From Sphingomonas sp. KRR8 (GTDB taxonomy: Bacteria > Pseudomonadota > Alphaproteobacteria > Sphingomonadales > Sphingomonadaceae): 64,000 nucleotides of DNA. The notes beneath the pieces are model-generated. The model saw only the letters and a list, made by a program, of their open reading frames with translations. It was not told the DNA's origin and did no database searches. This document shows positions 39,604 to 47,741 of this stretch, in pieces; within the stretch, counting starts at the first letter, position 1; every line of letters starts with the position of its first letter. The position numbers and the translations under genes were made by a program. The DNA lies in NCBI RefSeq assembly GCF_023559245.1, contig NZ_CP097462.1, positions 1,488,001 through 1,552,000 of the forward strand. The letters run 5' to 3'.

Positions 39604-40974
39604 ATGCGACGCCTGACCCTGTTCGCCCGCTGGCTGATGCTGGCCCTGGTCCTGTCCTTTGCCGCGGCCCAGCCGGCTGCGGCGCAGGCCATTCTTCGCG
39701 ACAGCGAATCCGAAGCGCTCTTCAATGACCTGTCCAGACCGCTGATCCAGGCGGCGGGGCTCGATCCCAAGGTGGTCAGGGTCGTCCTGATCAACGACCC
39801 CGAGATCAACGCCTTCGTCGCCACCGGCCAAACCGTCTACATCCACTCGGGCCTGCTGACGGCCGCGGACAACGCCAACCAGCTCCAGGGCGTAATCGCG
39901 CACGAGCTCGGCCACGTCGCGGGGGGCCATTCCATCCGGGTCTATGAAGGCGTCCGCAAGGCAACCGCCATCCAGATCCTCAGCCTCGTGCTTGGTGGGC
40001 TGGCGCTCGCAGCGGGCAGCGGCGACGCGGCGATGGGCGCCATGGCGCTCGGGCAGCAGGCCGCCGAAGGCACCTTCCTGTCCTTTTCGCGGACGCAGGA
40101 GACCAGCGCCGACCTCGCCGGCGCCTCCTACCTCAGCAAGGCTGGGATCAGCGGGCGCGGCAGCCTCGAATTCTTCAAAAAGCTGCAGAACCAGGAATAT
40201 CGCCTGGCGCAGTATAAGACCGACAGTTACGGCCAGACCCATCCGCTCTCGTCGGAACGCATCCAGACACTCCAGACCCTTTACCAGAAGGACCCGGCCT
40301 GGACTCAGCGTACCGATCCCAAGCTGGAAGAGCGCTTCCAGCGGGTCCGCGCCAAACTGATCGGCTTCATCTCCGAACCGCAGGCGGTCCTCGCTTCCTA
40401 TCCGCCCAGCGACCAGTCCATCCCGGCCCATTATGCTCGGGCCTACGCCTACCATCGGCAGGCCTTTCGCGATCAGGCGCTGGCCGAGACCGACGCCCTG
40501 CTGAAGGCCCGGCCGGGCGATCCCTACTTTCTCGAACTCAAGGGCCAGGTCCTGCTCGAATCGGGCAAGCCCAAGGACGCGCTGGAACCGCTTCGCCAGT
40601 CGGTCGCCGCCGCCCCCGACAAGCCGATGATCGCGGCCATGCTCGGCCATGCCCTCATCGCGACCGAGCAGGAGAGCAATTACCCGGAGGCGGAGCGGGT
40701 GCTCAAGGCCGCGGTCAACCGCGACAACGATAATCCCTTCGCCTGGTACCAACTCGGCATGGTCTACGAGCATAAGGGCGACCTCGCCCGCGCCGCCCTG
40801 GCGACGGCCGAGCGCTACAATCTCGAAGGCGATCCCAAGCTTGCGCTGGTCAGCGCCGAGACCGCCATGCGTGGGATTCCGCCGGGCACGCCGGACTATC
40901 TTCGGGCGCAGGATATCGCCATGGTGTCACGCGCCGAAGTCGACAAGAACAAGAAGGGCAATCGAAGCAAGTGA
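39604..40974 (+). CDS. M48 metalloprotease with TPR domain (BepA-like)
   Basis: A periplasmic protease-chaperone of 456 residues. A signal peptide of about 28 residues (ARWLMLALVLSFAAAQ, cleavage near AAA-QA) is followed by an M48 peptidase domain with the zinc motif HELGH at residues 100-104 and the third-ligand Glu in QETSADLAGASYLSK. The C-terminal half has TPR repeats (ARAYAYHRQAFRDQALAETD, LEPLRQSVAAAPDKPMIAAM and so on). This is the BepA/YfgC arrangement, which degrades or assists stalled outer-membrane proteins at the BAM complex. It overlaps the following DsbA-like gene by four bases, forming a periplasmic protein-folding pair. Confidence 0.93.
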   Translation: MRRLTLFARWLMLALVLSFAAAQPAAAQAILRDSESEALFNDLSRPLIQAAGLDPKVVRVVLINDPEINAFVATGQTVYIHSGLLTAADNANQLQGVIAHELGHVAGGHSIRVYEGVRKATAIQILSLVLGGLALAAGSGDAAMGAMALGQQAAEGTFLSFSRTQETSADLAGASYLSKAGISGRGSLEFFKKLQNQEYRLAQYKTDSYGQTHPLSSERIQTLQTLYQKDPAWTQRTDPKLEERFQRVRAKLIGFISEPQAVLASYPPSDQSIPAHYARAYAYHRQAFRDQALAETDALLKARPGDPYFLELKGQVLLESGKPKDALEPLRQSVAAAPDKPMIAAMLGHALIATEQESNYPEAERVLKAAVNRDNDNPFAWYQLGMVYEHKGDLARAALATAERYNLEGDPKLALVSAETAMRGIPPGTPDYLRAQDIAMVSRAEVDKNKKGNRSK

Positions 40975-41690
40975 GCGAACCGAACCGGGCGCCGTCACCG
41001 CTCCCCGCCGCCCTCCTCGGAGCATTGGGGGGCACGCTCCTGACGCTCCTCGTCCTTGCTTTCGGCGCGCACGCCGGCTGGTTCGATCGCTATGTCCGCC
41101 AGTCCTTGACCCGCGACCCGGACATGCTGATCGCCGCCTCCGAAAGCCTCAAGCAGCGGCAATATGCACCAACGCTGGCGGCCAACCGGACCGCACTCGA
41201 AACGCCGTTTGGCTCATCTTGGCAGGGCGCCGCCAACCCGGACGTCACCTTGGTCGAATTCTACGACTACGCCTGCGGCTACTGCAAAGCCTCGCTCCCG
41301 GTGCTCGATCGCCTGCTCAAGGAAGATCCGAAGCTACGCATCGTCTACCGCGATTTCCCGATTCTCGGCGAAGGCAGCGTCGCCGCCGCGCGGATGGCGC
41401 TGGGCGCCAGCAAGGCCGGCAAGTTCACCCAGTTCCACGATGCCCTCTACGCCGCCGGCCGCCCGGACCAGCAGACGCTGACCCAGGCCGCACAGGCTGC
41501 CGGCATCCCGGCCGGGATTCCTCAAAGCCCCGAGTTCGAGACCGAGCTCAAGCGCAACTACCAGCTCGCGACCGAGCTTGGTGCCACCGGCACGCCGCTG
41601 TTCGTGGTCGGCAATCAGGTGCTGAACGGTGCTGTCGGTTACGACTCGCTCAAAGCCGCCATCGCCGCCGCCCGCGCCGCCAAGTCCTAG
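40971..41690 (+). CDS. DsbA-like thiol-disulfide oxidoreductase, membrane-anchored
   Basis: 239 residues. A membrane anchor at 12-34 (PAALLGALGGTLLTLLVLA) and a short helical linker precede a thioredoxin-fold domain with the active-site Cys102-Gly-Tyr-Cys105 (LVEFYDYACGYCKASLPV) and the cis-Pro loop GATGTPLFVVG. The CGYC motif and the extra helices place it among Com1/ScsC-like DsbA relatives, which oxidise or isomerise disulfides in the periplasm. Start GTG 40971 overlaps the upstream stop codon (GTGA), so translation is coupled to the M48 protease. The stop shares a CTAG with the convergent gene. Confidence 0.92.
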   Translation: MSEPNRAPSPLPAALLGALGGTLLTLLVLAFGAHAGWFDRYVRQSLTRDPDMLIAASESLKQRQYAPTLAANRTALETPFGSSWQGAANPDVTLVEFYDYACGYCKASLPVLDRLLKEDPKLRIVYRDFPILGEGSVAAARMALGASKAGKFTQFHDALYAAGRPDQQTLTQAAQAAGIPAGIPQSPEFETELKRNYQLATELGATGTPLFVVGNQVLNGAVGYDSLKAAIAAARAAKS

Positions 41691-43438
41691 TTGACGAGCC
41701 CCAGCTTGGCGGCTCGCTCCGCTGCGGCCGGCGTGATCGCCATGGCCGCGGCCCGGTCCGCCTCGCCACCTGCTGCGTCGCCCATCCTCCGCTTGACCAA
41801 GCCGCGCATCAGCAAACTCCACGCGTTCCTCGGGCTGAGCCGGATGGCGGCATCATAATCGGCCAGCGCCGCCGGCAGGTTGTTCTGTCGAAGCCGCACC
41901 AGCGCCCGGCTGTCGAGATACGCCGCCGTGTTCGGCCGTGCCTTCAATGCCGCGTTGCAGTCGCTCAGCGCCTGGTCCAGCGAACGGTTGAGTTGCGCCA
42001 GCGCCCAGCAGCGCCCGTTGAGCGCGGACGGCCGCGCTGCGTCCTCCGAATGCGTCTTGAGCCAGGCGTCGTAGTTGGTCAGCGCCAGCTCGGGCTGCTC
42101 GGCGGCATTGGCCATGCCGGCCAGCTGCAGCCGCTGCCCCGCCGCCGCCGGCAGGATCCGGTCGAGCGCCCGCAGGTCCTCCGCCGCGCCCTGCGGGTCG
42201 CGCCCGACGAGCTTCATGGCCGCCCGCATCTGCCGCGCTTCCGTGTCGTTCGGGTCGAGTGACAGCGCCTTGTCGAGGTCGGCCGCGGCCAGCAGAGGCT
42301 GGCGATTGACCATCCGCGCCGTCGCTCGCTGGCGAAGGAAGCCGGCGTTGGTCGGAGCCAACGCCACCGCCTTGTCGAAGTCCGCCAGCGCCTCCGCCAC
42401 CTTCTGCTTGCTTAGCAGCGCCGCCCCGCGCCGGGCGAACCCTTCGGCGTCGGTCGGCACCGCTGCCCGGTCCGTCAGGTCGAGCCGCTCGCCATTCGCC
42501 AGCCGCGCGCCCGTCGGAGCGATTCCGAACACAGGGCCGCCTTCGTAGGTGATCAGCATCTTGTTTGCGCTGTTGGCGACATAAACATGGTGAGTGAGGA
42601 AGAAGTCCGCGCCAATCAGCATGTCCGCATTGCTGAACTGGGCCTCGCTGAAGCGGATTTGCGGATGCGGAATGCTCTCGCCCCCAATCTGCAGCCTGTC
42701 GAACTTGCCCATCCAGCTCCGCAGCGTCCTGGTGCCAAGGCCCGTCGCCGGTCCGCTTGCCTCCACCCCCGGGCTCGTTGGAGTGACCCCCGCCCGCCGC
42801 GCCGCCGCCATGGTCAGCAGCGAACTTGGCGCTCCGGTATCGAACAGGGCGCGGAGCCGAACGCCGTTCAGCGTCACGGTCCCGATCGTATGGCTCTGGT
42901 TCGCCGAACGCTCCTCGATCGGGATGATCGTCAGCGGCTGCTCGCTCGGCCAATAGCCCAGCTCCTCGACCTTGCAGCCGCTGGGCTTGAGCACCCGGAC
43001 GACGCCATGGCCAAGATCATATTCGGCATCGAACAGCCCAAGGAGGTTCTGCCCCAGCAGGCCGACCTGTCCGATGTCCGTTCCGCCGACGATGAACTGC
43101 ACGTTGGGAATGTCGATTCCACCCACCGTGAACCGCTTGACGGTGGTCAGGCTCGCACTGGCCGAGCCGTTGATCCCGCGCAGGTAGAAGCCCGGCGGAA
43201 GATCGTTCAGCTTGAGGTTGAAGGTCTGGGCGGTGGCAGGTGACAGCGTGCTGAAGAAGGCGCCACTGTCGAGGATGAACCGCGCATCGCGTCCATCGAT
43301 CTTGGCGTTCACCAGCGGCCGGGCGCCGACCATTGTGATCGGCAGTTCGAAATATTGCGTCAGGTGGCAGGCCGCGCCGGCCATGGTGGAACAGCCCAGC
43401 GCCGCCGTTCCGAACGCCAATCGAATACGCAGACGCAT
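41687..43438 (-). CDS. Retropepsin-like aspartic protease with two protease domains and TPR repeats
   Basis: 583 residues. A signal peptide (LRIRLAFGTAALGCSTMAGA) is followed by two retropepsin-like modules: Asp57-Ser-Gly in ARFILDSGAFFSTL and Asp200-Thr-Gly in RALFDTGAPSSLLT. Each is followed by the hydrophobic GLLGQNLL- or MLIGADFF-type strand characteristic of these folds. The C-terminal 240 residues hold at least five TPR units (for example AEALADFDKAVALAPTNAGF and LDQALSDCNAALKARPNTAA). Two such half-domains can pair like the two lobes of a pepsin. It is likely periplasmic; the substrate is unknown. The start at 43438 is chosen because it gives the signal peptide directly. Confidence 0.85.
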   Translation of the reverse strand: MRLRIRLAFGTAALGCSTMAGAACHLTQYFELPITMVGARPLVNAKIDGRDARFILDSGAFFSTLSPATAQTFNLKLNDLPPGFYLRGINGSASASLTTVKRFTVGGIDIPNVQFIVGGTDIGQVGLLGQNLLGLFDAEYDLGHGVVRVLKPSGCKVEELGYWPSEQPLTIIPIEERSANQSHTIGTVTLNGVRLRALFDTGAPSSLLTMAAARRAGVTPTSPGVEASGPATGLGTRTLRSWMGKFDRLQIGGESIPHPQIRFSEAQFSNADMLIGADFFLTHHVYVANSANKMLITYEGGPVFGIAPTGARLANGERLDLTDRAAVPTDAEGFARRGAALLSKQKVAEALADFDKAVALAPTNAGFLRQRATARMVNRQPLLAAADLDKALSLDPNDTEARQMRAAMKLVGRDPQGAAEDLRALDRILPAAAGQRLQLAGMANAAEQPELALTNYDAWLKTHSEDAARPSALNGRCWALAQLNRSLDQALSDCNAALKARPNTAAYLDSRALVRLRQNNLPAALADYDAAIRLSPRNAWSLLMRGLVKRRMGDAAGGEADRAAAMAITPAAAERAAKLGLVN

Positions 43439-43651
43439 GAACCCTCCACCGACCGCTTCGCGGGACACTGGCCGCCCGAAGCGAGCCTAGCCATCCGGAC
43501 GAACTTAACAACAGTTACAATGCGCTACGCCTTACCGGAAGCCAGCCAATTCCCGTCCGTTGTGGCTTGCCAGCCGCCCAAAGCGAAGTATGTGTCCGCT
43601 TCAGGGGGGTCCTCGGTCGCCTGAGCTTTGTTGGCGTTTTCTCCAATAAGC
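43439..43651. other. Divergent promoter region before the photoreceptor gene
   Basis: 213 bases between the retropepsin gene (minus) and the photoreceptor gene (plus). It is less GC-rich than its surroundings near 43500-43525 (AACTTAACAACAGTTACAAT), where promoters for either gene may lie; TACAAT at 43516-43521 is a fair plus-strand -10 without a clear -35. No obvious operator palindrome is seen. Confidence 0.35.
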
Positions 43652-46303
43652 ATGCTCTCGCTCCGTACGCAGCGAGGTAGTTTGTTGGTTCACGGTGACA
43701 CGGCCCAAGTCCCGCTTGACGGCCTCGGCGACGAGCAACTCGATGCGCTGCCGTTTGGCGTCATCCAGCTCGACGGTCAGGGCACCATCCGGAAATATAA
43801 TGCGGCCGAGAGCCGATTTTCGGGCCGCGCGCCCGAGCGGGTGATGGGCCGCGATTTCTTCCGCGACGTCGCGCCCTGCACCAACCTGCCAGCGTTCCGC
43901 GGCCGGTTCCTCGACGGGGTCCGCCGCGGCCACCTCCATTCGGTGTTCGGCTTCGTCTTCGGCTTCGATGAACTGGCGCGAGTCGAGGTTACGATGCGAG
44001 CTGCGGCCGAGCCCGACCGTTACTGGCTCACCATCCACCAACTCGGCCGTCTCAACTCCAGCCCTCAGCGCCGCGCCAGCAGCGTCGCGGCGGATGCCGT
44101 CGACCGCCGCGTCCGGGCAGAACCGGTCGATTCCGACGTCTGCGCGCTGGAGCCCATCCATATTCCCGGCGCGGTCCAACCACACACCGCCACTGTCGTG
44201 CTCGATCCCGCAACGCTCGAGGTCGTCGCCTGCAGTGACAATATCGCCGACGCGCTCGGCCTTCCGCCGACGGCGGTGATCGGCGCCCCGGCCGATGTAC
44301 TGTTCCCGGCCGACGTTCTGGCGGGGCTCGCGTCCGTCGTCTCCAGCCAGGCGCAGGCCGTTCCCGGGCGACCGTGGCGGTTGACGGCTCCGCTCGGCCC
44401 GGAGCAGCGCGACTTCACCGTCGCCGCCCACCTCAACGACGGCCACCTCATCCTCGAGATTGAGTTGCTCCCCGCCCGCCCCGGCGATTTCGCGGAGGCC
44501 TCGGCCGATGAGGCGCTGGACGCGGTCCGCCAGATCCGCGCCGCCGATAGCCTCCACACGGCGGCCGGCGAATGTGCCCGCCACATCCGCGACATGACGG
44601 GGTTTGAGCGGGTGCTGGTCTATCGCTTCGACGAGGACTGGAACGGCGAAGCGCTCGCGGAGTGCCGGGACGAGGACGCCTATCCTTCCCTGCTCGGCCT
44701 GCACTTTCCCGCTTCCGACATTCCGGCGCAGGCGCGGGCCCTCTACGTCAACGCGCCCGCGCGCTTCGTGATCGATCGCGACGCCGTGCCCGCGACCCTG
44801 GTCGCTCGCCCCGAGGCGGGCAACGCGCCCGTCAACCTCAGCCTTGCTTATTCGCGGGCGTTGTCGCCCATCCACCTCGAATATCAGCGCAACCTCGGCG
44901 TGAACGGGTCGATGTCGATTTCGATCGTGGTCGATGGCAAGCTGTGGGGCCTTGTCATCGGTCATTGCCGCCGACCGCATTACGTCACCCCGCAGACCCG
45001 CGCCCTCGCCACCCTGGTGACCGACGCCTTCGCCCTGCGCGTTCACGAACTTGCCACCAGCAGCGCCTGGCGGGAGCAGCAGCTCGGCCTCCAGCAGCAG
45101 AACGAGTTGCTGCGCGATCTGGCCGGCTCCGACGATTTCGTCGCGACGCTCGCTCCACCGGATGACAAGGGGCCGGGCCTCAGCCGGCTGTTCCGAAGCA
45201 GTGGCGCGGCGGTCATCAGCGGCGACCGCGTTGCCACCGTCGGGCAAACCCCCGACCAACCGTCGCTTCGCGCCCTCGCCGACTGGCTTCGCGGCGCCGT
45301 CTCCTCCGACACCCGCTCCTTCGCGACCGCCGACCTCTCCGCGCACTGGCCCGACGCCCAGGCGTGGCGCGCAGTCGCCAGCGGGCTTCTCGCCGTGTTC
45401 ATCGACGCGGATCGCAGCAATCTCCTCCTCTGGTTCAAGCCGGAAATCGCCTCCACCGTCGTGTGGGGCGGCGATCCCAACAAGACCGTGCTGGCAGATA
45501 CGACCACCGGCACCATCCTTCCCCGCCGCTCCTTCGAGCGCTGGGTCGAGGAGCGCGCTGGCCAGTCCGAACGCTGGGATAACTGGCAGGTCGACGCCGC
45601 TAGTGCCTTTGCCGCCGCCGTGGACGGCGTGGCACTCCGTCAGGGGCGCACCATCGCCGAGCTGCGACACACGGGGCAGGAGCTCGCCGACGCGCTCGAG
45701 AAGAAGGACCTGCTGGCGCGCGAGATCGACCATCGGGTCAAGAACTCGCTCCAGATCGTGGCCAGCGTGATGCTCCTGCAGTCGCGCGCAGTTGCCGACG
45801 AAGACGCCAAGGCAGCGTTCCAGGACACCTATGCCCGGGTGATGAGCGTCGCCCGGGTGCACAACAGCCTGCAGGCCAGCGAAGACCAGCAGGTCGACCT
45901 GGGCGAATCCCTTCGCCAGCTGTGCGGCGACCTCACCCACGGCGTGCTCGCCCGCGAGGACATGGTGGAAGTCGACGTCGACGACGGGTTGATGGTGCCG
46001 AGTTCGACCGCCGTGGCGGTCAGCCTGATTGCGACCGAGCTGGTCACCAACGCGATCAAATACGCCTATCCGGGCGATAAGACCGGGCCGGTATCGCTCA
46101 CGCTGCGCGGCGATGCTCCGGGCAAGCTCACGCTGACCGTCTGCGACGAAGGTGAAGGCCTCGCCCCGGACTGGGAGACGCGCCAGCGCGAGGGCGGCGG
46201 GCTCGGCATGCGGGTCATCCGCGCACTTCTGAAGCAGATCGACGGCGAACTCGAGGTGATTTCCGATCGCCGCCAGGGTGCCTGCTTCACGGTACGCACC
46301 TGA
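43652..46303 (+). CDS. ppr: Hybrid photoreceptor kinase: PYP domain + bacteriophytochrome (PAS-GAF-PHY) + HisKA_2 histidine kinase (Ppr-like)
   Basis: 883 residues. Residues 24-130 align with photoactive yellow protein: LPFGVIQLDGQGTIRKYNAA contains Tyr49 (PYP Tyr42), Glu53 (Glu46) follows, then Ser57 for Thr50, Arg59 (Arg52), and Cys76 in RDVAPCT (the Cys69 that binds p-coumarate). Residues 160-470 are a bacteriophytochrome: Cys164 before EPIHIPGAVQPH (biliverdin attachment), then the GAF motif FPASDIPAQAR (Asp356), SPIHLEYQRN (His408) and GHC (His438). The PHY tongue has PRRSF (624-628). The kinase is HisKA_2-type with EIDHRVKNSLQ (His694) and a HATPase ending GGGLGMRVI. A heme oxygenase gene follows after one base. 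The ATG at 43652 is preferred over TTG 43628; both lack a good ribosome-binding site. Confidence 0.93.
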   Translation: MLSLRTQRGSLLVHGDTAQVPLDGLGDEQLDALPFGVIQLDGQGTIRKYNAAESRFSGRAPERVMGRDFFRDVAPCTNLPAFRGRFLDGVRRGHLHSVFGFVFGFDELARVEVTMRAAAEPDRYWLTIHQLGRLNSSPQRRASSVAADAVDRRVRAEPVDSDVCALEPIHIPGAVQPHTATVVLDPATLEVVACSDNIADALGLPPTAVIGAPADVLFPADVLAGLASVVSSQAQAVPGRPWRLTAPLGPEQRDFTVAAHLNDGHLILEIELLPARPGDFAEASADEALDAVRQIRAADSLHTAAGECARHIRDMTGFERVLVYRFDEDWNGEALAECRDEDAYPSLLGLHFPASDIPAQARALYVNAPARFVIDRDAVPATLVARPEAGNAPVNLSLAYSRALSPIHLEYQRNLGVNGSMSISIVVDGKLWGLVIGHCRRPHYVTPQTRALATLVTDAFALRVHELATSSAWREQQLGLQQQNELLRDLAGSDDFVATLAPPDDKGPGLSRLFRSSGAAVISGDRVATVGQTPDQPSLRALADWLRGAVSSDTRSFATADLSAHWPDAQAWRAVASGLLAVFIDADRSNLLLWFKPEIASTVVWGGDPNKTVLADTTTGTILPRRSFERWVEERAGQSERWDNWQVDAASAFAAAVDGVALRQGRTIAELRHTGQELADALEKKDLLAREIDHRVKNSLQIVASVMLLQSRAVADEDAKAAFQDTYARVMSVARVHNSLQASEDQQVDLGESLRQLCGDLTHGVLAREDMVEVDVDDGLMVPSSTAVAVSLIATELVTNAIKYAYPGDKTGPVSLTLRGDAPGKLTLTVCDEGEGLAPDWETRQREGGGLGMRVIRALLKQIDGELEVISDRRQGACFTVRT

Positions 46304-46304
46304 C

Positions 46305-46847
46305 GTGCCGGCGGGTATCGCCAACACCTTGCGCGAACGCACCCGCGCGGAGCACGATCGGATCGAGGAGGCTCTCGACTGGCAGTCCCGCGCCGCCGAC
46401 CGCCAGTCCTACGCCGATTGGCTGGAACGGCTGCAGGGCTTCTATTCGGGTTGGGAGCCGGCGCTGGCCGAAGCGGTCGATGACCCGCTCTTCTTCGACG
46501 AGCGCCGCAAGCTGCCGCTGCTGGAACGCGATCTGGCGGCGCTCGGGCGGCCGGTCGGCCCTGGGCACGAAGCTCCGCTCTACCCCTTCACCACTCAGGC
46601 GGAGGCGCTCGGGGCGCTTTACGTGCTCGAAGGCTCGACGCTCGGCGGGCTTCTGATCGCGGCGCACGTTCGCGGCCATCTCGGCTTCGAACCTGCCTTT
46701 CACGGCGGCTACGGCAAGCAGACTGCTCAGCGATGGCAAAGCCTCCGCGCCCGTCTCGACCACGCGATCGGCGCGGACGAGCTTGACGCGTCCGTCGCCG
46801 CCGCCCGGCGCACCTTCACAACGCTCGGCGAGCAACTGACCGCCTGA
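46305..46847 (+). CDS. bphO: Biliverdin-producing heme oxygenase (BphO)
   Basis: A 180-residue bacterial heme oxygenase that opens heme to biliverdin IX-alpha, releasing CO and iron. The proximal His is His17 in LRERTRAEHDRIEEAL. The distal-helix glycine motif is in LGALYVLEGSTLGGLLIAAH. The start is GTG 46305, one base after the photoreceptor stop, so the two are translationally coupled; an ATG at 46278 inside the upstream gene is in frame but would overlap it by 26 bases. Pairing bphO with a bacteriophytochrome gene is well established and supplies the chromophore where it is used. No biliverdin reductase or PYP chromophore-synthesis gene is adjacent. Confidence 0.93.
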   Translation: MPAGIANTLRERTRAEHDRIEEALDWQSRAADRQSYADWLERLQGFYSGWEPALAEAVDDPLFFDERRKLPLLERDLAALGRPVGPGHEAPLYPFTTQAEALGALYVLEGSTLGGLLIAAHVRGHLGFEPAFHGGYGKQTAQRWQSLRARLDHAIGADELDASVAAARRTFTTLGEQLTA

Positions 46848-47084: not shown

Positions 47085-47741
47085 CTACTCGGCGGCGGCT
47101 TCGGGCCGGCCCTTGAACCCCTGCGCCACCACGTACCATTCGCTCGAATCCTTGCGGCTGGCGGGCGGCTTGGCGTGCTTCACGGTGGTGAAATGGCGCT
47201 TCAGTTCGGCCAGCAGCTGGTGGTCGGTTCCGCCGGCAAGCACCTTGGCGACATAGGCTCCGCCTGGCTTCAGCACGTCCTTGGCAAACTCCAGCCCAAG
47301 CTCGACCAGCCCCATCGTGCGCAGGTGGTCGGTCTGCGGATGGCCCACGGTGTTCGCCGCCATGTCGGACAGCACCAGGTCCGCCTCGCCGCCCAACGCC
47401 GCCTTCAGCTGCGCGTCGGCGGTCTCGTCGGTGAAGTCGAGCTGCAGGATCGTCACCCCATCCAGCGGATCGACCGGCAGGAAGTCGATCCCCGCCACCC
47501 GCGCCTGCGGTGCCTTCTTGCGCACCACCTGGCTCCATCCGCCCGGCGCAATGCCGAGGTCGACCACCGCCTTGACGCCCTTCAGCAGGCTGTATTTCTC
47601 GTCGAGTTCGATGAGCTTGTAGGCCGCGCGGCTGCGATAGCCCTCGGCCTTGGCGCGCTTGACGTAGGGGTCGTTGAGCTGCCGCTGCAGCCACTTGGTC
47701 GACCCGACCTTGCGGCCCTTGGCGGTTTTCAGCCGGGTCAC
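47085..47741 (-). CDS. rlmE: 23S rRNA (uridine-2552-2'-O)-methyltransferase
   Basis: RlmE (FtsJ/RrmJ) methylates the ribose of U2552 in the A-loop of 23S rRNA, late in 50S assembly. 218 residues. Visible: the N-terminal [20 protein letters not shown] with the first catalytic Lys, the SAM motif [35 protein letters not shown] with the catalytic Asp, GGAYVAKVL with the second Lys, and the terminal [11 protein letters not shown] with the Glu, forming the KDKE tetrad. The start is ATG 47741, overlapping the ppx stop codon by four bases, so the two genes form an operon. Confidence 0.95.

Follow-up and report, generated by a model that had tools for sequence, protein, structure and literature searches.

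A photoactive yellow protein-bacteriophytochrome histidine kinase gene beside a heme oxygenase gene in a Sphingomonas genome

For decades photoactive yellow protein (PYP) has served as a model protein, but its cellular message and the p-coumarate source of many PYP bacteria are unsettled. In Ppr of Rhodocista (Rhodospirillum) centenaria, called R. centenum below, PYP forms one polypeptide with a bacteriophytochrome and a histidine kinase. Of two papers on such hybrids, the Dohmen 2025 survey counts 37 PYP-phytochrome-kinase proteins (PMC12826048), and Xing 2022 describes a heme oxygenase neighbour (PMC9664959). Here we analyse a gene of this type, ppr, at positions 43652–46303 (+) of a 64,000-nucleotide stretch of the Sphingomonas sp. 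KRR8 genome (NZ_CP097462.1, 1,488,001 to 1,552,000; hereafter the window, whose positions we use). As judged from its sequence, the encoded protein combines a blue-light sensor, a red-light sensor and a signalling kinase, which makes it a member of a known but uncommon photoreceptor type. We found PYP-phytochrome-kinase proteins in Roseomonadaceae, Methylobacterium and sphingomonads; KRR8 Ppr belongs to this already known type. An earlier reading made from the letters alone (the sequence-only reading) had recognised the hybrid and taken its kind to come from a few purple phototrophs. That picture is outdated, given the published count and the present host, which has no photosynthetic reaction-centre gene (Photo_RC) in its genome. 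Neither of the two papers cited above has the string 'Sphingo' in its main text. Photoactive yellow protein is mentioned in none of the literature matches listed, the first 10 of 150 and of 375, which do not cover subscription papers and are weak evidence of absence.

The ppr gene is a single open frame of 883 codons with no internal stop. Pfam recognises, in order, a PAS fold that corresponds to PYP (residues 27–93), PAS_2 (164–271; 44141–44464), GAF (301–463; 44552–45040), PHY (481–664; 45092–45643), HisKA_2 (691–763; 45722–45940) and HATPase_c (790–882; 46019–46297), every one of them over its curated cut-off. Ppr is the sole PHY-domain protein detected in the genome. Its translation start is uncertain, because the ATG at 43652 has no evident ribosome-binding site, 'gagg' precedes the possible alternative TTG starts at 43682 and 43685, and a public protein that is 99% identical (P0002) measures 872 residues, which would fit a start at 43685. 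A chance open reading frame (ORF) or a misaligned PYP is ruled out by the Pfam domains, the matches in the Protein Data Bank (PDB), an alignment of 44 proteins and the gap-free alignment of the PYP domain.

The PYP domain (residues 24–130; 43721–44041) has the PYP of Ppr as its best PDB match (1MZU, E 1.1e-38), followed by photoactive yellow protein entries. It aligns with Halorhodospira PYP (Hh-PYP) without a gap from Hh residue 17 to 101, which is residues 24–108 here, and this alignment bears out the chromophore site named in the sequence-only reading: Cys76 (codon 43877–43879) equals Cys69, Tyr49 equals Tyr42, Glu53 equals Glu46 and Arg59 equals Arg52, with Ser57 at the position of Thr50. 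The protein thus has the N-terminal PYP of the Ppr class, with the equivalents of Tyr42, Glu46 and Cys69 in place. The position of Hh-PYP Met100 is occupied by Glu107, whereas 1MZU has Met there in the alignment. In H. halophila PYP, dark recovery becomes slower when Met100 is lost, and we would therefore predict a slow photocycle for the KRR8 domain.

Conservation was assessed in an alignment of the window protein with 43 of 46 homologue matches, P0002 among them; P0044, P0045 and P0047, which have other architectures, were left out. Of its 44 proteins, 42 keep Tyr49, 42 keep Glu53, 41 keep Cys76 and 40 keep Arg59. On average the 43 relatives share 65% identity with the window protein in PYP, 48% in PAS_2, 73% in GAF, 57% in PHY and 68% in HisKA_2. 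On this comparison the PYP domain is under clear constraint, because its identity exceeds that of PAS_2 and PHY.

Cys164, the biliverdin-type cysteine at the start of PAS_2 (codon 44141–44143), His170, Asp356 of the PASDIP motif, His408 and His438 in GAF, and Arg625 and Ser627 of the PRRSF tongue in PHY are invariant in 44 of 44 proteins, a conservation of the bilin pocket that is, at the sequence level, far beyond chance. The PAS-GAF-PHY core of the Ppr class, with its biliverdin Cys and pocket residues, is therefore present as the sequence-only reading had it. That reading had set the region at residues 155–660; residues 159–673 match solved bacteriophytochromes (4R6L, E 8.5e-88). An AlphaFold2 (AF2) model built from the 44-row alignment has a mean predicted local distance difference test score (pLDDT) of 80.3 and a predicted template modelling score of 0.66. 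Ten-residue blocks of the PYP region lie at pLDDT 78–96, 10 of the 11 at 89 or above, and values fall below 50 at the N-terminus, the PYP-phytochrome linker, the PHY tongue (601–635) and the hinge before the kinase. Foldseek matched the whole model to full-length and core bacteriophytochromes, best of all to the full-length bacteriophytochrome of P. aeruginosa (9EUT, E 1e-46).

A heme oxygenase gene, bphO (46305–46847, +), lies directly downstream of ppr, so the coupling of the two genes stands. The one-base spacing first proposed is less firm: the GTG at 46305 does begin one base past the ppr stop, and an overlapping GTG at 46278 is also available, so that the start is not settled. The frame from 46278 scores 39.1 bits against Pfam Heme_oxygenase (cut-off 23); against NCBIfam, the frame from 46305 had no match at E 0.001. 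A Pfam family search of the genome found no second heme oxygenase, and bphO probably serves Ppr.

The same arrangement is frequent and not general. A heme oxygenase adjoins the hybrid gene in 15 of 24 alphaproteobacterial genomes, namely KRR8, the family genome G084 and 13 of 22 named loci. These 13 are S. lenta and 11 Methylobacterium loci out of 12, with the heme oxygenase downstream, and Aerophototrophica, with it upstream. One named locus, L068, has a PYP frame cut short at 381 residues and is among the 22 loci and 24 genomes counted. In the other nine named loci, including three Roseomonas, one Paracraurococcus and three Belnapia, no heme oxygenase lay within the flank examined (up to 6 kb on the upstream side of ppr and up to about 3.7 kb on the downstream side, shorter at contig ends). 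The statement that a heme oxygenase stands in the neighbourhood of every PYP-phytochrome (Xing 2022, PMC9664959) does not hold in this sample.

The kinase foreseen at the C-terminus is there, HisKA_2 followed by HATPase_c, with the phospho-acceptor His694 in the sequence HRVKN. A C-terminal histidine kinase is a feature of the Ppr class, although the subtype is unlike the HisKA of the type protein; HRxxN within an HWE/HisKA_2 kinase is the feature of the Pak-type kinases of the general stress response. Kinases of this kind, HWE/HisKA_2 with HRxxN, phosphorylate SdrG and PhyR in Sphingomonas melonis Fr1 (PMC5898713). At about 1.433–1.437 Mb of the KRR8 contig, some 95 kb from ppr, Pfam confirms an EcfG-like sigma factor, PhyR and NepR, together with a membrane HisKA_2 protein beside them that is PhyT-like by position. 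No response regulator and no che gene was found among the immediate neighbours scanned. By analogy, the Ppr kinase may signal to PhyR. Elsewhere in the genome, at about 1.606 Mb (L003, 1144–2175, −), a receiver-like N-terminus, recognised by eye, is fused to a HisKA_2 kinase in an unusual order.

Where the p-coumarate would come from is less obvious. A search of the single-contig genome for the aromatic ammonia-lyase family, which includes the tyrosine ammonia-lyase (TAL) that the sequence-only reading suggested looking for, found one lyase, HutH, and no TAL. The enzyme passes the NCBIfam hutH equivalog (655 bits, cut-off 539) and scores 503 bits against the histidine ammonia-lyase 1GKM and 227 bits against 2O6Y, which we take to be the TAL of R. 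sphaeroides. A urocanase-like ORF, read by eye, adjoins hutH. HutH carries the Ser-His selectivity pair, the mark of a histidine ammonia-lyase.

Across the 24 hybrid-bearing alphaproteobacterial genomes, five lack any lyase of the family, 14 hold Ser-His lyases alone and five have a Ser-His lyase and a second one; the 22 named genomes in this count are mostly drafts, of unstated completeness. The 24 comprise KRR8 and 23 of 27 further genomes scanned for lyases; no lyase was found in the remaining four, three Chromatiaceae with a PYP-phytochrome fusion (L084, L086, L088) and one genome with a standalone PYP (L080). All 19 Ser-His lyases of hybrid genomes pass the hutH cut-off. Two of the five second lyases, in Aerophototrophica (L123) and Methylobacterium sp. 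WSM2598 (L124), keep the Ala-Ser-Gly motif of the 4-methylideneimidazole-5-one (MIO) group and pass no NCBIfam cut-off; a TAL role is possible from their sequences, and neither is identified as a TAL. The other three (L125, L126 and L127, of Methylobacterium sp. DB0501, M. terricola and Arenibaculum) are HutH-like, lack the MIO motif in the alignment and are unlikely to be lyases that use the usual mechanism. We considered whether the absence of TAL is peculiar to hybrids and rejected this, since 13 genomes with other PYP proteins likewise showed no TAL: six have a lyase (all Ser-His by motif) and in seven none was found. In nearly all sampled genomes TAL is not merely elsewhere but is not found at all. 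In Dohmen 2025, 5% of pyp operons contain TAL, and environmental uptake is raised as one possibility (PMC12826048); our genome-wide result favours uptake. With HutH as the only lyase found in KRR8, and with no lyase identified as a TAL in the hybrid genomes sampled, the strain probably either scavenges p-coumarate or has an empty PYP.

Taking these observations together, we think it rather likely that KRR8 Ppr is a photoreceptor with self-made biliverdin, a blue-light input that is conditional on external p-coumarate, and an output that most likely goes to the general stress response. The adjoining heme oxygenase would make biliverdin, which, once bound in the intact pocket, would give the phytochrome part a red/far-red switch. 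PYP with p-coumarate on Cys76 would add a blue input that modulates phytochrome and kinase, as in R. centenum Ppr. The p-coumarate is most likely external, for example from plant matter, because no TAL was found. The kinase, with its HRxxN box, would most likely pass phosphate to PhyR, either directly or through SdrG/PhyT. Of the sequence-only proposal that blue and red/far-red light converge on one kinase, dual sensing finds support in the site residues, and the supply of p-coumarate finds none.

Several points weigh against this account, and with them come three rival explanations. One is that PYP is free of chromophore in this strain, so that Ppr works as an ordinary bacteriophytochrome kinase whose N-terminal PYP has a structural or redox-sensing role. 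The missing TAL would fit, and so would the loss of the PYP Cys in 5 of 63 tree rows (L091, G084, P0027, P0040 and P0046), for which five changes are needed and which suggests that some lineages can do without the PYP input; the tree was built by a quick method without the PYP columns and without P0002, and has 56 different rows and several long branches. Three of the Cys-less proteins are in the 44-protein alignment and retain the phytochrome pocket, as does, by eye, that of G084. Losses of Cys69 were already known from methylobacterial Ppr, with redox sensing suggested (Xing 2022, PMC9664959), and G084 adds a sphingomonad case. Yet the window protein retains every PYP site residue, Tyr, Glu, Arg and Cys, and the conservation of PYP described above speaks against an empty site, because such a site would be expected to drift. 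We regard an empty PYP in KRR8 as unlikely. Two of the Cys-less proteins deserve description in their own right. The G084 gene (L176, 6067–8892, −) has Tyr to His, Glu to Ile and Cys to Gly at the PYP site, with phytochrome domains, kinase domains and the adjoining heme oxygenase intact, and would be a natural PYP-blind version of Ppr. The protein of Methylobacterium sp. NEAU 140 (L091) has Phe, Ala and Gly at the equivalents of Tyr42, Glu46 and Cys69, and no aromatic ammonia-lyase was found in its genome.

If instead p-coumarate is made in the cell by another route, a side activity of HutH or an unrecognised pathway, PYP would always be loaded. Possible routes through histidine or phenylalanine ammonia-lyase have been named (Xing 2022, PMC9664959), and HutH is present. 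Its score well over the hutH cut-off and its Ser-His pair argue otherwise, as do the five hybrid-bearing genomes with no lyase of the family, and we consider this route improbable. A p-coumarate CoA ligase, which the sequence-only reading also suggested looking for, was not identified: none of eight AMP-binding ligases passed an NCBIfam hydroxycinnamate-ligase cut-off among the 25 best models for each, in a library that may hold no such model and with the ADP-forming family not searched. Three of the eight, compared with the PDB, scored best against feruloyl-CoA synthetase (195–221 bits), with 4-coumarate-CoA ligase at 181–210, which assigns nothing. The Pfam search overlooked the heme oxygenase gene of S. 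lenta, so that bphO may not be the only one in the KRR8 genome. Coupling to PhyR is not specifically supported in a genome with six HisKA_2 proteins, and the only Ppr with a reported partner, that of R. centenum, couples to CheW, its kinase domain binding CheW with a Kd of 0.13 µM (PMC2993699). A chemotaxis output through CheW, to which the eight CheW-domain matches in the KRR8 genome would also lend themselves, has to contend with the different kinase, HisKA_2 with HRxxN here and HisKA in R. centenum (PMC12826048, PMC9664959), and with the absence of a che gene among the immediate neighbours scanned. HisKA_2 is also the rule among the 44 aligned proteins (41 of them; PF00512 is listed only for P0028 and P0042, and P0021 is incomplete), and we hold a CheW output to be quite unlikely.

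If the conditional two-colour receptor kinase that we favour is real, it would report blue light only where plant phenolics occur. A wider version, which we put forward as doubtful, is that the hybrids of non-photosynthetic sphingomonads, Methylobacterium and Roseomonas are conditional two-colour stress receptors that make their own biliverdin, need plant p-coumarate and feed PhyR, with the PYP Cys repeatedly lost where supply is not steady. KRR8 makes both PYP questions directly testable: its small single-contig genome has one phytochrome, Ppr, with adjoining bphO, a standard stress-response locus, no reaction-centre gene and no TAL found.

The genomic setting points to gain or loss of a block. 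Between a DsbA-like thioredoxin gene (40971–41690, +) and an RlmE/FtsJ-like methyltransferase gene (47085–47741, −), both assigned by Pfam and synteny, lie ppr, bphO and a divergent gene (41687–43468, −) for a retropepsin-like aspartyl protease with two repeats, fused to tetratricopeptide repeats. The flanking genes dsbA and rlmE adjoin in 10 of 10 sampled genus mates, and none of the three block genes was found there by tblastn (E 1e-15) in 14.6–14.7 kb around rlmE. The gap carries about 0.5–2.2 kb of other DNA in four of these genomes and is below 0.1 kb in six. Further retropepsin-like genes are present in all 11 genus genomes searched. Either the KRR8 lineage acquired the block or its genus mates lost it, alternatives that the sample does not separate. 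A recent transfer of odd composition was rejected, because ppr resembles its neighbours (GC 0.685; GC at third codon positions 0.842), and only synteny suggests gain or loss. A link to a photosynthesis cluster was likewise rejected: Photo_RC is absent from 12 of 12 genomes (KRR8, 10 genus mates and G084).

A scan of 397 family genomes found a PYP at E < 1e-9 in eight, as hybrids in KRR8 and G084 and as short ORFs in six, and in none of 10 other genus members. The six (L019–L024) are standalone PYP-like ORFs of 117–158 codons, and five of these six genomes have no detected aromatic ammonia-lyase. Four weaker matches (E 3.5e-4 to 6.8e-4) probably represent ordinary PAS domains. Of the two patterns with which contigs were scanned for hybrids, one includes the PYP Cys, so that Cys-less relatives are under-counted. 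The closest relatives of KRR8 Ppr are P0003–P0006 (77–81% identity), one of them labelled Sphingo... at source. The S. lenta protein falls in the same broad group but further off, in a tree of 36 rows that includes 19 of the 22 named loci (L068, L075 and L077 were left out).

How, then, does KRR8 Ppr compare with known systems? It resembles R. centenaria Ppr in the order of PYP, bacteriophytochrome and histidine kinase, in length (883 residues against 884; PMC2993699) and in its PYP, whose best structural relative is 1MZU. It differs in kinase subtype, in a host without a reaction-centre gene and in having Glu107 at the Met100 position. The proteins of Methylobacterium, Roseomonas, Belnapia and S. 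lenta share PYP, phytochrome and HisKA_2; identity is 51–59% to source-named Roseomonadaceae and Methylobacterium proteins and 63% to that of S. lenta. The S. lenta and most Methylobacterium loci also share the heme oxygenase directly downstream, unlike the Roseomonas, Paracraurococcus and Belnapia loci counted above. Ppd of Thermochromatium tepidum and other Chromatiaceae has the same PYP-bacteriophytochrome sensor, but its output is GGDEF/EAL and not a kinase (PMC12826048). The Pak kinases of S. melonis Fr1 are the reverse case: their sensor part is different, and their HWE/HisKA_2 kinase with HRxxN is like that of KRR8 Ppr.

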